Below are positions 17,624-57,580 of a DNA stretch of 64,000 bases, in pieces. Under the pieces are notes generated by a model. It did no database searches and was not told the origin of the DNA. It saw nothing but the letters and a program-made list of their open reading frames with translations. Position numbers and translations under genes: made by a program. Positions within the stretch are counted from its first letter, which is position 1. Each line of letters begins with the position of its first letter. Location: the NCBI GenBank assembly GCA_030447745.1, contig JAUJOH010000001.1:187440-251439 (forward strand), given 5' to 3'. This stretch comes from Chloroflexota bacterium (lineage in GTDB: Bacteria; Chloroflexota; Limnocylindria; Limnocylindrales; CSP1-4).

Positions 17624-17890
17624 TCAGGGGCGGAGATGCTGCGGCGCGTACGGCAGCAGGGCGACGTGGCGCGCCCGCTTCAGCGCCACGGCCAGCTCCC
17701 GCTGGTGGGCGGCGCAGGTGCCCGTCTTGCGGCGGGGCTCGATCTTGGCTCGCTCGGACAGGTAACGGCGGAGGCGGTTGACCTCCTTGTAGTCGATCTG
17801 CGCCGTCTTGTCGGCGCAGAACGCGCACACCTTCCGGCGGCGTCGGTCGCGGTAGTAATCGTCTCGCTTCTTTGATCGGGTCGGCGGCAT
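17624..17890 (-). CDS. rpsR: 30S ribosomal protein S18
   Basis: [65 protein letters not shown]. Confidence 0.96.
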
Positions 17891-17963
17891 GGGTGAGGAT
17901 CCTTTCGGCGGAGCGGCTGGCAGCCGCTGGAGGTATCGGGGAGCGCGGTGGGGCGCGCCGAAT

Positions 17964-18416
17964 TCAGAAGGGCAGGTCGTCCAGGTCGTTGTCCTCGCGG
18001 CCGCGGCTGCCGTACGCGCCGCCCGCGGGTGCCGGGGCGCGCTCGCCGCTCGGCGCGCCGAAGGTCCCCTCCCCCTCCTCGCGGTTGCGCCGCTCGAGGT
18101 TGATCACGTTGTCGGCCGTGATGTCGAGGGACGTCCGCTTCTGACCGTCGTTGCCCTCGAACTCGCGCGACTTGAAGCGTCCCTCGACGAAGACGCGGCT
18201 GCCCTTTCGGAGCTGCTCGGCGGCCCGCTCGGCCCGGTCGCCGAAGACGCTGACGCGAAACCAGTCCGTCTCGTCGGTCCACTCGCCGGTCTGCTGGTTC
18301 TTCGTGCTCTGGTTGACGGCCACGCTGAACTGCGTGACCGGCCGACCGCTCGGGGTGTAGCGCATCTCCGGGTCGCGGCCGAGATTGCCGATGATCATGA
18401 GCTTGCACAGCGCCAT
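17964..18416 (-). CDS. ssb: Single-stranded DNA-binding protein
   Basis: [36 protein letters not shown]...[30 protein letters not shown], acidic tail [10 protein letters not shown]. Confidence 0.96.
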
Positions 18417-18431
18417 GGCAGCCGTCCCTTC

Positions 18432-18863
18432 TCACTCGATGGCGGCCGGAGCCGCCTCGCTCTCGGACTCGTCGATCCGCTCGCCTTCCTCGTCGTCCGG
18501 CTCGTCCTCGGCCGGCGGCAGCGCGGTCTCCTCGCCGATCTCCCCGGCCCCATCGTCGCGGCGGACGGCGCGGACCGGGCGCTCGATGCGCGTCACGAGG
18601 TGGCGCAGGACCTCCTCGGTGATCTGGAGCGCGCGCTCCAGGTCCGCGACAGCAGCCGGCGGGCCCTCGAACACCACGATGTGGTAGGAGCCCTCGCGGT
18701 GGCGGTCGATCGAGTACGCAAGGCGCCGACGCCCCCAGGGCGCAACCTTCACGATCTGGCCGCCCGAGGCGACGAGTTGACGGGTCGTCCGGTCGATGAG
18801 GGCCTGGCTGCGTTCGTCCGCGACGTCCGGACGCAGCACGAGCATCAGTTCGTAGCGGCGCAT
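18432..18863 (-). CDS. rpsF: 30S ribosomal protein S6
   Basis: MRRYELMLVLRPDVADERSQALIDRTTRQLVASGGQIVKVAPWGRRRLAYSIDRHREGSYHIVVFEGPPAAVADLERALQITEEVLRHLVTR. Confidence 0.95.
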   Translation of the reverse strand: MRRYELMLVLRPDVADERSQALIDRTTRQLVASGGQIVKVAPWGRRRLAYSIDRHREGSYHIVVFEGPPAAVADLERALQITEEVLRHLVTRIERPVRAVRRDDGAGEIGEETALPPAEDEPDDEEGERIDESESEAAPAAIE

Positions 18864-19103
18864 GCGCCACATACTCCTTCCTGTGGGAACTGCCCCGCTG
18901 GGCACGGCCGGAGGCCGGGGCGGAGCCGAAAGGAAACGCGACGAGTCTAGCACGAGAGACCATCAGATCCTCGCCACGGCAGATCGTCGACACGGCGGGC
19001 GCGCGCCCCGGTCGCTCGCGTCGCGCCGGACTGCGACGGCGCTGCAACGACCCATTCCCACCGTTGGTTGCCCGCCTGAGCACGGACCATCGACCGTCTG
19101 CCC

Positions 19104-19331
19104 ATGAGCGAGTCGCCGCGCCACCCGTCCGAGGCCACCTTCCCCTCCGAGGAGGACCCGGCGCCCGCGCCGGAGCGCGAACGACCGACGGTCGCCGAGG
19201 TCGAGACGAACGAGGGAGTCGATCTCGGCGGGACCGGAGCGCCGGTCGGGCGCAACAACATCGCCGAGGGTCGCGTCGGCGGGTCGATGGGCGGCCCGCA
19301 TCCGCAGGGCGGACAGGGCCAGGGCGGCTGA
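19104..19331 (+). CDS. Small low-complexity hypothetical protein (75 aa)
   Basis: MSESPRHPSEATFPSEEDPAPAPERERPTVAEVETNEGVDLGGTGAPVGRNNIAEGRVGGSMGGPHPQGGQGQGG. ATG start, disordered composition; coding status uncertain. Confidence 0.4.
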   Translation: MSESPRHPSEATFPSEEDPAPAPERERPTVAEVETNEGVDLGGTGAPVGRNNIAEGRVGGSMGGPHPQGGQGQGG

Positions 19332-19508
19332 AGACCCGCACGGTGGTCACGCCGGAGCGGCCGGCCGGCCCGCGTCCGGAGCGCCCGGCCGGGCCACGTC
19401 CCATGGCCACCGGGGACCATCCTTCCCCCTCGGACGGGACCATCCGGAGGGGTCGCCCGTGTGCGTCCGTGCTTTAGTGTCTCGGCTACGCGGCACGACG
19501 CCGTGGAC

Positions 19509-19601
19509 CGGTTCGCCGGTCGACAAGGGCAAACCCAGGGCGACCTGGGGACGCAAAGCCACGGGACTCGGTTCGCCGAGTCAGCCGGGTTGCCGAAACC
19601 G
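19509..19601 (+). ncRNA. Cyclic di-GMP-I (GEMM-I) riboswitch aptamer
   Basis: CGGTTCGCCGGTCGACAAGGGCAAACCCAGGGCGACCTGGGGACGCAAAGCCACGGGACTCGGTTCGCCGAGTCAGCCGGGTTGCCGAAACCG. Matches the GEMM-I core AGGGCAAACC..., a CCCAGG-GCGA-CCTGGG GNRA hairpin, GGGACGCAAAGCC, a GACTCGG-TTCG-CCGAGTC hairpin, AGCCGGGTTGCCG, and closing P1 CGGTT/AACCG. Confidence 0.93.
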
Positions 19602-19614
19602 TCTGAGGTCCGCC

Positions 19615-19725
19615 ATGAAGCTCGCCAGCTTCAGCAACGCTCGACCGACCGCAACCGCCGTCGCCTTCCGGATCGCGGTGATCCTCGGCGTCGCGCTCGC
19701 CGCGGCCGGGTCCGCCCGCATCTAG
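19615..19725 (+). CDS. 36-aa hydrophobic peptide directly downstream of the c-di-GMP riboswitch
   Basis: MKLASFSNARPTATAVAFRIAVILGVALAAAGSARI. ATG at 19615, 14 nt after the aptamer closing helix, RBS-like GAGGTC; in frame within track ORF 19459..19725. Confidence 0.6.
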   Translation: MKLASFSNARPTATAVAFRIAVILGVALAAAGSARI

Positions 19726-19815
19726 CCGCTCGCCGGGCGCCGCATTCGGCGGAGTCCAACATCGTCCCCTGCGCGACCGGGTCACTCAGGGCTCCGTCGT
19801 TGCACGGATTCGTCG

Positions 19816-19898
19816 TGCCGAAGCAGGGATTCGAACCCTGACGCCCTCGCGGGCCGCCGATTTTAAGTCGGCTGCGTCTGCCGTTCCGCCACTTCGGC
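19816..19898 (-). tRNA. tRNA-Leu(TAA)
   Basis: GCCGAAGTGGCGGAACGGCAGACGCAGCCGACTTAAAATCGGCGGCCCGCGAGGGCGTCAGGGTTCGAATCCCTGCTTCGGCA; long variable arm, anticodon TAA. Confidence 0.95.
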
Positions 19899-19983
19899 CG
19901 GCCGCCAGCGTAGCAAGCGGTTCGCGCGTCGGGCATCCCGCCTCACGGGCATGCGTTCCCGGGAGGGCGCATCGCGGGCAACG

Positions 19984-53991: not shown

Positions 53992-54068
53992 TGGAGGCGA
54001 CGACCGGATTCGAACCGGTGAATAGAGGTTTTGCAGACCTCCGTGTTGAGCCACTTCACCACGTCGCC
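53992..54068 (-). tRNA. tRNA-Cys(GCA), island attachment site
   Basis: GGCGACGTGGTGAAGTGGCTCAACACGGAGGTCTGCAAAACCTCTATTCACCGGTTCGAATCCGGTCGTCGCCTCCA. Confidence 0.95.
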
Positions 54069-54128
54069 ATCTGTGGTTCGCCGGCCCGGTGTCGGCGGAT
54101 GGTCCGCATCGCGCGGACCATATTCGGT

Positions 54129-54202
54129 TGGCTGCCCCTCGAGGATTCGAACCTCGGTTCACGGATCCAAAGTCCGCTGTCCTACCGCTAGACGAAGGGG
54201 CA
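54129..54202 (-). tRNA. tRNA-Gln(TTG)
   Basis: TGCCCCTTCGTCTAGCGGTAGGACAGCGGACTTTGGATCCGTGAACCGAGGTTCGAATCCTCGAGGGGCAGCCA. Confidence 0.95.
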
Positions 54203-54245
54203 GCGTCGCTCTGGCGGGCGGCCGTCGCGCCCCTGGGGCAACAAA

Positions 54246-54321
54246 TGGAGCGGAAGACGGGACTCGAACCCGCGACCCTCACCTTGGCAAGGTGATGCTC
54301 TACCAACTGAGCCACTTCCGC
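54246..54321 (-). tRNA. tRNA-Gly(GCC)
   Basis: GCGGAAGTGGCTCAGTTGGTAGAGCATCACCTTGCCAAGGTGAGGGTCGCGGGTTCGAGTCCCGTCTTCCGCTCCA. Confidence 0.95.
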
Positions 54322-54345
54322 CCGATGACGCGACCACCTTTGCGG

Positions 54346-54421
54346 TGGTGCCGAGAGCCAGGATCGAACTGGCGACACCGCGATTTTCAGTCGCGTGCTC
54401 TACCAACTGAGCTATCTCGGC
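54346..54421 (-). tRNA. tRNA-Phe(GAA)
   Basis: GCCGAGATAGCTCAGTTGGTAGAGCACGCGACTGAAAATCGCGGTGTCGCCAGTTCGATCCTGGCTCTCGGCACCA. Confidence 0.95.
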
Positions 54422-54722
54422 CCGATGGCCAACCAGGCTTTGGCCGCCCGTCGGCGGTCCAGAGGATAGCACGGGGTCGCGACGCCCCTCAAGGCGACGG
54501 ACTGGAGCCAGGCGCGTGGCGGCACGACCTCCGGCTTGCTGCGGCCGCTACTCGTGCCACGGCTATTTCCTGACCATCGGCAGACACAAGGGCGCGAACC
54601 ACCACCGGGTCGAGGTTCTGCGCGCGGTGTGCACGCACGAATCGGCCGCGCGGGCGTGGCGAGCCCCCCGATGTGGCGGCCGAAGGGCCGCGGATAGCAC
54701 TGCCACGAATAGCCCCCGGCGA

Positions 54723-55097
54723 CTACGGTTCCCGGGCTCCGTCGCGCCCCAGGACCGACTCCAGCAGCGCGTACCCGCCGGGGCTGCCCGGCCACCGGCG
54801 CCGGAGCTCCTCGCTCCCGACGCGCTGCCGCACGTATCGAAGCACGAGCACGGCCACGATGATGTCGTCGAGCGGGCCCAGGACCGGGACGAACTCCGGG
54901 ATGAGGTCGATCGGGTTGACGAGCCAGACGATCAGCCCGACCAGCGCGAGTCGGGCGCCCAGAGGCGTCGAGCCGTCCGCGAGCAATGACCGCACGAGCC
55001 GGGCGACGTCCGGCACGACACCCACGGCCTCGCGGAGTGGCACGTCGCGCGGCCGGCCGACCCAGACCAGCGCAATTGCCGCCAGCCAGACGACCAC
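54723..55097 (-). CDS. DUF1232 (YkvA-like) membrane protein
   Basis: DVARLVRSLLADGSTPLGARLALVGLIVWLVNPIDLIPEFVPVLGPLDDIIVAVLVLRYVRQRV. Confidence 0.85.
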   Translation of the reverse strand: MVVWLAAIALVWVGRPRDVPLREAVGVVPDVARLVRSLLADGSTPLGARLALVGLIVWLVNPIDLIPEFVPVLGPLDDIIVAVLVLRYVRQRVGSEELRRRWPGSPGGYALLESVLGRDGAREP

Positions 55098-55138
55098 CAG
55101 TCCGGCGACGACGGTGACGAAGGGTCGGAGGTCCAGCG

Positions 55139-56116
55139 CTACTCCAGCTCCGCCAGCGCCGCCACGTCCGGCTCGGCCAGCGGCCGCTCCCCGGTGAGCT
55201 CCCGCAGCCGGTTGATCCGCTCGACGATCGGCGGGTGCGTCGCGAAGAGCCCGGAAGCCCGCGTCTCGAACTTCTTGATCGGGTTCGTGAAGTAGAGGTG
55301 CTGCGTCGCGCGGTTCGCGACTTCGAGGACCTCCCGGTCCGCGGTGATCTTGGCGAGCGCACGCTCGAGCCCGGACGGGTTGCGGGTGATCTCGACCGAT
55401 GACGAGTCCGCCAGGTACTCCCGCTGGCGGCTGACGGCCAGCTGGACGAACCGTGCGGCGATCGGGGCCAGGATGGCGAGCACCATCGCCAGCACGAGCA
55501 TGATGACCTGGAGAACGCCGCCGCCATCACGACCGCCCGAGCGGCGTCCTCCGCCGCCCCAGAAAGTGAAGCGCAGGAAGAAGTCGGACAGGAGGGCGAT
55601 CGACCCGACGAGCACCCCCACGATCAGCGAGAACCGGATGTCGAGGTTCCGGACGTGCGCGAGCTCGTGCCCGATGACGCCTTGCAGCTCCTCCCGATCG
55701 AGCTTCTCGAGCAGTCCCGTCGTGACGGCGATCGAGGCGTGCTCAGGATCCCGTCCGGTGGCGAACGCGTTCGGCGCAGAGTCATCGATCACGTGCACGC
55801 GAGGCATGGGGATGTTCGCCGCAATCGCCATCTCCTGGACGACGTTCATCAGCTGCGGAGCCGTCGTCTCGTCGACCTCTTTCGCGTTCGACGCGGCCAG
55901 GACGAGCCGGTCGCCCGTGAAGTACGAGCCGAGCGACATGACCAGCCCGACGACGAACGCGAGCGCGGTCGCACCGATCGCTCCGGCCGGCTCGCCCGTC
56001 AACGCATAGCCGGCGGCAAAGCCCAGCGCCCCGAGCAGCACGACCACGACCAGCGCAAGGAGGAACGAGTTGCGCCGGTTGGCCGCGATCTGGTCGTAGA
56101 AGGTCGAGCGAGCCAA
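55139..56116 (-). CDS. htpX: M48 family zinc metalloprotease HtpX
   Basis: MPRVHVIDDSAPNAFATGRDPEHASIAVTTGLLEKLDREELQGVIGHELAHVRNLDIRFSLIVG (HExxH); YLADSSSVEITRNPSGLERALAKI. Confidence 0.94.
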   Translation of the reverse strand: MARSTFYDQIAANRRNSFLLALVVVVLLGALGFAAGYALTGEPAGAIGATALAFVVGLVMSLGSYFTGDRLVLAASNAKEVDETTAPQLMNVVQEMAIAANIPMPRVHVIDDSAPNAFATGRDPEHASIAVTTGLLEKLDREELQGVIGHELAHVRNLDIRFSLIVGVLVGSIALLSDFFLRFTFWGGGGRRSGGRDGGGVLQVIMLVLAMVLAILAPIAARFVQLAVSRQREYLADSSSVEITRNPSGLERALAKITADREVLEVANRATQHLYFTNPIKKFETRASGLFATHPPIVERINRLRELTGERPLAEPDVAALAELE

Positions 56117-56179
56117 AGCGTCCTCTCCGCTCGCGTCGTCCGGCGGCCGTGCGTCGCGGACGGTGTGACGGGTCCGGCC

Positions 56180-56749
56180 TCAGCCGACCGACAAATCGAC
56201 GCGCGGCACGTTCGCTGCTTCGGGCTCGGCATCGAAGAATTCGCGACGGGTGAACGCGAACGGTCCGGCGATCAGCATGCTCGGGAACGTCGCGATGGCG
56301 GTGTTGTAGTCGAGCACCGACGCGTTGTAATGCTGGCGGCTGAACGAGATCTGGTTCTCCGTCGTGGTCAGCTGCTCCTGCAGCTCCAGCACGTTCTGGT
56401 TCGCCCGCAGCTCCGGGTAGTTCTCCACGACCGCGAACAGCGACCGAAGGGCGCCCGTCAGGGCGTTCTCGGCCTGAGCCTGCTCGGCCGGGCCGCGCGC
56501 GCCGGCGGCGACCGCAGCCGCGCGCGCCTCGGTGACCTGAGTCAGGACGTCCTGCTCGAACCCCATGTAGCCCCTGACGGCGTTCACGAGGTTGGGGATC
56601 AGGTCGTGCCGACGCTTCAGCTGCACCTCGATCTGGGCAAACGCCTCGTCCACCCGGAGCCGTCGCTGGACCAGACCGTTGTAGATCGCGATGGTCAGGA
56701 CGACGACGAGGAGGAGGATCACGATGACGACCAGGACCGGGATGTCCAT
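56180..56749 (-). CDS. lemA: LemA family protein
   Basis: YNGLVQRRLRVDEAFAQIEVQLKRRHDLIPNLVNAVRGYMGFEQDVLTQVTEAR...YNASVLDYNTAIATFPSMLIAGPFAF. Confidence 0.94.
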   Translation of the reverse strand: MDIPVLVVIVILLLVVVLTIAIYNGLVQRRLRVDEAFAQIEVQLKRRHDLIPNLVNAVRGYMGFEQDVLTQVTEARAAAVAAGARGPAEQAQAENALTGALRSLFAVVENYPELRANQNVLELQEQLTTTENQISFSRQHYNASVLDYNTAIATFPSMLIAGPFAFTRREFFDAEPEAANVPRVDLSVG

Positions 56750-56832
56750 GTTGCCCTCCGGAAATGGCCGCGCGACGCCGGCTCGGTCGGGCGAGTCTAG
56801 CAGCCCACATCGCGCCGTCGAGCACCGAACGG

Positions 56833-56906
56833 TGGGCGGTACTGGACTCGAACCAGTGACTTCCTCGGTGTAAACGAGGCGCTCTAACCGACTGAGCTAA
56901 CCGCCC
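56833..56906 (-). tRNA. tRNA-Val(TAC)
   Basis: GGGCGGTTAGCTCAGTCGGTTAGAGCGCCTCGTTTACACCGAGGAAGTCACTGGTTCGAGTCCAGTACCGCCCA. Confidence 0.95.
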
Positions 56907-57372
56907 GAGGCGACAGCGTAGGCGCTGGGTTGGGGCTGCGTCGACGGTGACGCCTGGTCCGGGTCGATCTCGCGCGCGGTCGGCGCCGGGCATGCCGAGT
57001 GGCCGGTCGACGGGGCCCTCGCCGCGGCGCGCACACCTGGCGGCGCCGGTCGACGCGCCGGCAGGCCGCGGCGCGCCACCCTTCGTTCGCGTGCCAGACG
57101 TGCGTGGACGGACTGCTGGGTTTGGTCGCGCGTCGAGGCCCGCTTTCCGGCCGTTCCCACGCACGGGCTGCGGCGCTCGGCAGCAACAAGACGGCCGAAC
57201 AGTCCACCGAGGCATGGGTGGCCCGGTTCGGGCCGTCGCAGCCGGTACGAGTCCCGGACCGCATATCCGCACCGATCGACGGCGAGGCCCGCGGTGTGAC
57301 AGTTGGCTTGTTGCCGCGCCGGTGAATCAGAACGAGCGCCCGAGGGCGCCCGTCTCGTCGGTGTCAGGGTGG

Positions 57373-57454
57373 TGCCCAGGCCGGGACTTGAACCCGGATG
57401 AGTTGCCTCATACGCCCCTCAAACGTACGCGTATACCAATTCCGCCACCTGGGC
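57373..57454 (-). tRNA. tRNA-Leu(GAG)
   Basis: GCCCAGGTGGCGGAATTGGTATACGCGTACGTTTGAGGGGCGTATGAGGCAACTCATCCGGGTTCAAGTCCCGGCCTGGGCA; long variable arm. Confidence 0.93.
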
Positions 57455-57493
57455 ACGGTGCTCGCCGGGGTTCGGGACCCGAGGGGGTTGTGG

Positions 57494-57580
57494 TGGTACC
57501 GAGGACGGGACTTGAACCCATACGCCCTTGCGGGCACTAGCTCCTGAAGCTAGCGCGTCTGCCAATTCCGCCACCTCGGC
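57494..57580 (-). tRNA. tRNA-Leu(CAG)
   Basis: GCCGAGGTGGCGGAATTGGCAGACGCGCTAGCTTCAGGAGCTAGTGCCCGCAAGGGCGTATGGGTTCAAGTCCCGTCCTCGGTACCA. Confidence 0.95.

Follow-up and report, generated by a model that had tools for sequence, protein, structure and literature searches.

A c-di-GMP-I riboswitch followed by a lone predicted membrane micropeptide in a Limnocylindrales genome, with similar units in related bacteria

The reported targets of c-di-GMP-I (GEMM-I) riboswitches are genes for various physiological states, motility and biofilm formation among them (PMC7266159). The nearest precedent for a small protein connected with this riboswitch class is found in C. difficile, where two type I toxin-antitoxin loci, CD0977.1-RCd11 and CD2889-RCd12, with toxins of 47 amino acids, are associated with c-di-GMP-I riboswitches (PMC6563280). 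In the open-access literature, no paper was found that deals with c-di-GMP riboswitches of Limnocylindria or with micropeptides as their targets.

Here we analyse a locus within a window of 64,000 nucleotides (positions 187,440 to 251,439 of contig JAUJOH010000001.1, forward strand; all coordinates below are those of the window) from the 2.43 Mb, 77%-complete genome of an uncultured bacterium of the Limnocylindrales (Chloroflexota). A preliminary description of the sequence had interpreted the locus as a GEMM-I riboswitch that controls a single hydrophobic peptide of 36 codons, and this interpretation as a whole is partly supported. The riboswitch belongs to a known class, and its kind of target is unusual but recurrent. 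We consider it quite probable that the locus is a self-contained, monocistronic, c-di-GMP-responsive unit whose output is one membrane micropeptide.

The aptamer and its binding pocket

Covariance models place the aptamer at 19519-19598 on the + strand. A cmscan search of Rfam reports RF03167 (c-di-GMP-I-GGC) with 68 bits (cut-off 59, E 6e-14), and RF01051 (c-di-GMP-I) matches the same positions with 75 bits against a gathering cut-off of 35, which is the Infernal comparison with the GEMM-I model that had been proposed as a check. The aptamer had been drawn somewhat wider in the preliminary description, at 19509-19601. The models bear out the assignment, but about ten of its 5′ bases are part of an upstream hairpin (19506-19521). 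The RNA is certainly a genuine member of the c-di-GMP-I class, and it is present as a single copy in the genome.

In the alignment, positions 19528, 19555 and 19593 appear to correspond to the pocket bases G20, A47 and C92, in what we take to be the numbering of the Vc2 structure (a cross-check of this numbering was one off at C92), and all three are canonical. Because the pocket bases look canonical, c-di-GMP is expected to be the ligand, and we regard this as likely on the basis of the sequence. The host genome encodes four GGDEF domains.

The match to RF03167 raises the question of whether the RNA is a true GGC variant, with an as yet unknown ligand. RF03167 is the family that survives Rfam clan competition, and it also matches 47 of 101 relatives. 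The bit score of RF01051 is nonetheless the higher of the two, and within the stretch GACGC(G/A)AA the window has the canonical A (GACGCAAA) at the column where the RF03167 consensus has G (GACGCGAA). If GGC is taken to mean G at the A47 column, a reading that comes from the RF03167 consensus, then the window aptamer falls outside the variant. No G was seen at this column among 76 related aptamers when they were read by pattern, which left 7 of the 76 unreadable. A true GGC variant is thus improbable here, and we continue with the canonical c-di-GMP-I aptamer.

Some of the related aptamers (L050, L054, L056, L061 and L071, which stand before FWDGxRW proteins, and L052, L066 and L064) have A at the G20 position. 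This is the change that gives specificity for 3′,3′-cGAMP in GEMM-Ib, and it is possible, from the sequence, that these aptamers are cGAMP sensors in Limnocylindria. Among the proteins they precede are S8-protease-like ones, and long ones that look exported and begin with FWxGxRW.

The leader, the open reading frame and their surroundings

The leader upstream of the aptamer contains a putative −10 element, TAGTGT (TAnnnT, 19475-19480, +), whose T, A and T are invariant in an alignment of six micropeptide leaders, namely that of the window and five from relatives that are described below. A scan of both strands of 19300-19950 with the sigma-70 consensus found no promoter. It also missed the conserved TAnnnT element, and is therefore a weak test. 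Two short hairpins follow on the + strand. The first (CGCGGC ACGAC GCCGUG, 19489-19505) is paired in the minimum free energy (MFE) fold of the window sequence and aligns with a hairpin in the other five leaders, with some of the pairs changed on both sides. The second (GACCGG UUCG CCGGUC, 19506-19521) abuts the aptamer and is also present in the MFE fold; the other leaders have hairpins of different sequence in the same place. The score for an aptamer-adjacent hairpin in the group of six leaders has a mean of 10.3, compared with 7.2 for shuffles (sd 0.95), while the window leader taken alone (0.185) is not above its shuffles.

The open reading frame begins with ATG at 19615, only 16 nt after the aptamer, and ends with a TAG stop at 19725 (36 codons, + strand). 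Its product, MKLASFSNARPTATAVAFRIAVILGVALAAAGSARI, has one hydrophobic stretch and a net charge of +4, and is predicted to be a micropeptide with a single transmembrane (TM) helix. A Shine-Dalgarno region, TGAGGTCC, lies at 19604-19611 (+). The other micropeptide leaders have GAGG or AGGAGG at the corresponding site, and in all six leaders the Shine-Dalgarno and start codon are at a similar distance. A longer in-frame reading frame from GTG 19459 (88 aa) was rejected: it begins 5′ of the putative −10 element and crosses the aptamer, and the corresponding frame in the related genus g25 is open for 36 codons only.

The 16 nt leave no room for a terminator or antiterminator platform, and for this reason translational control is preferred to control by a terminator. 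Most likely, binding of c-di-GMP would alter ribosome access to the Shine-Dalgarno just 3′ of the aptamer, with the peptide made or not made according to the cellular level of c-di-GMP. When the leader in the window and those of the relatives were folded, the aptamer did not sequester the Shine-Dalgarno in any conserved way. One fold, of 19486-19640, did suggest such sequestration, but it was lost when the leader boundaries were shifted, and in the relatives.

Downstream of the stop codon there is a weak hairpin (19736-19754, +; −13.7 kcal/mol) that has no U-run and could be the 3′ end of the transcript. A terminator scan of the locus found none. A convergent tRNA-Leu (UAA) then follows at 19815-19898 on the − strand, outside the unit. 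The 36-codon frame matches the preliminary description exactly. The earlier claim that it is the only gene the riboswitch could control in cis, followed by a tRNA-Leu on the opposite strand, agrees with what was found, and the micropeptide holds its place as a lone and unusual target, there being no other recognisable + strand gene between the frame and the tRNA. Further 5′ lie a 75-aa reading frame with a Gly-rich C-terminus (19104-19331, +, just 5′ of the riboswitch, no Pfam match) and a ribosomal rpsF-ssb operon (17624-18953, −, Pfam S6 and SSB) that is divergent from the riboswitch. A cluster of seven tRNA genes is located elsewhere in the window (53992-57580, −).

The emptiness of the + strand before the tRNA would also fit a standalone c-di-GMP-responsive RNA, or a leader acting in trans or in antisense on the convergent tRNA-Leu, with the reading frame being incidental; antisense-acting riboswitches have been proposed before (PMC9943018). 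However, the other five micropeptide loci have no tRNA nearby, on which ground an antisense role on tRNA-Leu was rejected, and the similar spacing of Shine-Dalgarno and start codon at all loci speaks for a translated frame. A standalone leader, which the preliminary description had offered as its alternative, is made less likely by a parallel set of micropeptides (ending AGxRW, see below) that follow the same riboswitch type. We give these possibilities little credence, and judge that the micropeptide is likely to be the target of the window riboswitch.

A second possibility is that the peptide acts as the toxin of a type I system: small, hydrophobic and located in the membrane, with an mRNA gated by c-di-GMP and an antisense antitoxin that has escaped notice. 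The size, hydrophobicity and charge of the peptide fit such a role, as does the association of two toxin loci with c-di-GMP-I riboswitches in C. difficile. There, though, the riboswitch goes with the antitoxin RNA, while in the window it is a sense leader. The locus yielded no antisense RNA gene, the (weak) sigma-70 scan being negative on both strands; PADLOC, Pfam and NCBIfam returned no match for the micropeptide, and the latter two matched none of the five peptides tested. We regard a toxin as quite unlikely, and retain the interpretation that the peptide is the regulated output of its own leader.

Riboswitch-micropeptide units in related genomes

From the relatives, 76 of the aptamers were extracted with their flanks and the reading frames behind them were read; further loci were added later. 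The window riboswitch belongs to those with CACGGG aptamers (group A). Most group-A riboswitches precede secreted proteins of approximately 130–170 aa with an N-terminal TM segment, but five more, in two other genera (g25 and g2), precede a lone TM peptide of 31–35 aa. The search for the same riboswitch-micropeptide pair in relatives, which had been suggested beforehand, was successful. Neither of the outcomes that had been named as refuting the interpretation came about, since the covariance models match and the pairs exist in relatives. It is weakened, however, by most riboswitches of the group standing before other genes, and by the limits, set out below, of the case for homology of the window peptide to the other micropeptides. 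The only other genome of the same genus (79% complete) does not contain the riboswitch.

Together with the window, the group-A micropeptides share a common build. They are 31–36 aa long, directly 3′ of the aptamer, with one TM helix, a net charge of +3 or +4, and the motif R(V)P...R[IV]...SVR. The sequences from the relatives are MVARITSLRVPLALVTVLRIGLIVAIAMAGIASVR (G041), MLTLIGSMRVPIALSALFRIGFIIAVASAAVASVR (G025, 35 aa), MATARPRLDALVRVLAVAALAFAGIASVRPI (G105) and MATARPLLGALVRVIAVASLALAGVATVRPI (G106); the fifth, from G053, is cut short by masked bases. In g25 the reading frame is open for 36 codons only, so the length of the peptide is fixed. G105 and G106 have strong hairpins (−33 to −34 kcal/mol) immediately beyond the stop codon. 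The neighbouring genes differ at every locus, and no conserved neighbour was found beside the six. When the pair from g25 and the pair from g2 are compared, the second position of the codon varies least (7 of 46 differences, p ~0.005), and pN/pS values of 0.64–0.70 for group-A pairs indicate weak constraint.

Is the window peptide homologous to the others? Its best pair is with G025, with a score of 52. Twelve decoys taken from behind similar leaders, two of them AGxRW peptides and ten the N-termini of secreted proteins that other group-A riboswitches precede, scored 35 or less. The real score was matched by none of 5000 shuffles of the window peptide against G025 and by 3 of 5000 against G041, and the score summed over the four other peptides was reached by 5 of 20000 shuffles when the whole peptide was shuffled and, in the stricter segment-wise test, by 25 of 20000. 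These values are to be read in the light of the fact that the micropeptide loci were chosen visually from approximately 35 leaders of group A. In the same test the similarity to the g2 peptides alone was not significant, and pairwise BLASTP reported nothing. Class-wide similarity at the DNA level falls on the aptamer, with short, scattered stretches matching in the coding part.

When the five peptides that are intact (the window's among them) were made into a profile and 177 genomes of the class were searched, the only strong matches were those five, with none outside a riboswitch; the weak matches L238-L240 and L244 have no riboswitch. A search of 399 genomes of the phylum gave nothing convincing. 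When the window peptide was left out, the profile of the other four did not recover its ORF from the host genome. The case for homology between the window peptide and the other group-A micropeptides is suggestive but falls short of proof.

The leave-one-out result, and the N-terminal TM segment of the secreted proteins behind most group-A riboswitches, could also be understood if the riboswitch had formerly controlled a longer secreted protein, of which the ORF is the decayed signal or TM part. Against this, intact peptides of near-identical length and C-terminus are present in g25 and g2, with the g25 frame limited as noted above. The window peptide also resembles G025 far more than it does the N-termini of the ten secreted proteins, and no recognisable continuation was found in other frames 3′ of its stop. 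We therefore think a remnant unlikely, and prefer an intact micropeptide gene.

Aptamers of the same type also occur in Actinoplanes and relatives (L177, L187, L188, L198, L206 and L207), and there precede long secreted proteins with the conserved start MRY.PAHA.KSGSVPF.LRGPKS.

A second set of micropeptides follows the aptamers of group B (AGGGATCT). Within 420 nt of 25 of the 76 riboswitches, in 22 genomes, there are one or two peptides of about 28–36 aa that end in AGxRW; where there are two, they are related to each other. Control segments had AGxRW matches in G033 only, where riboswitch-peptide units recur in tandem. In this genome, locus L059 (G033:C392:4991-6255) is a tandem array in which three c-di-GMP-I riboswitches share 1.3 kb and every one of them has an AGxRW micropeptide ORF behind it. 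Among loci found through the AGxRW peptide profile alone, L232, L233 and L236 have a riboswitch, and L234 and L235 have none that is recognisable upstream. The AGxRW peptides appear, for the most part, to be under purifying selection: pN/pS is 0.21–0.34 in four of five pairs, the fifth having 1.21 (8 differences), and a sixth comparison gave pS 0.56 and pN 0.05. No significant homology was detected between group-A and AGxRW peptides.

Since both sets are linked to riboswitches, micropeptide control has the look of a recurring theme in Limnocylindria. We give somewhat better than even chances to the proposal that c-di-GMP-I riboswitches have repeatedly been recruited there to stand-alone units of one or two membrane peptides of 28–36 aa. 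For this general phenomenon, group B is the stronger case.

Comparison with known systems

On the basis of these observations, we hypothesise a unit that opens with its own putative promoter and a pair of short hairpins; these lead into the c-di-GMP-I aptamer, and 16 nt beyond it a small cationic peptide with one membrane helix has its start codon. As with other small membrane proteins of bacteria, the cytoplasmic membrane is its probable location, and modulation of a membrane complex its probable role. If this is true, then conserved one-gene units with a membrane micropeptide as their only output would represent a new kind of effector in c-di-GMP signalling, and direct control of membrane micropeptides at the RNA level would be a new output of that signalling. 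The riboswitch model would also provide a handle on small proteins that are missed by annotation.

KdpF, AcrZ and MgtS are proteins of approximately 30–50 aa with a single hydrophobic helix and known membrane partners. The window peptide is like them in size and in having one helix, but unlike them in that no partner is conserved beside the riboswitch-micropeptide units. Compared with RF01051, the window RNA agrees in sequence, in the P2/P3 fold, in the pocket bases and in its site just 5′ of a start codon; it differs in its lone 36-aa target, in a very short P1 and in the two extra hairpins 5′ of the aptamer. RF03167 is its best Rfam match after clan competition, and is set apart by the base at the consensus-G pocket column. 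The C. difficile loci share with it a small protein at a locus associated with c-di-GMP-I (PMC6563280); their riboswitches are associated with the antitoxin RNA, whereas the riboswitch in the window leads the peptide's own mRNA.
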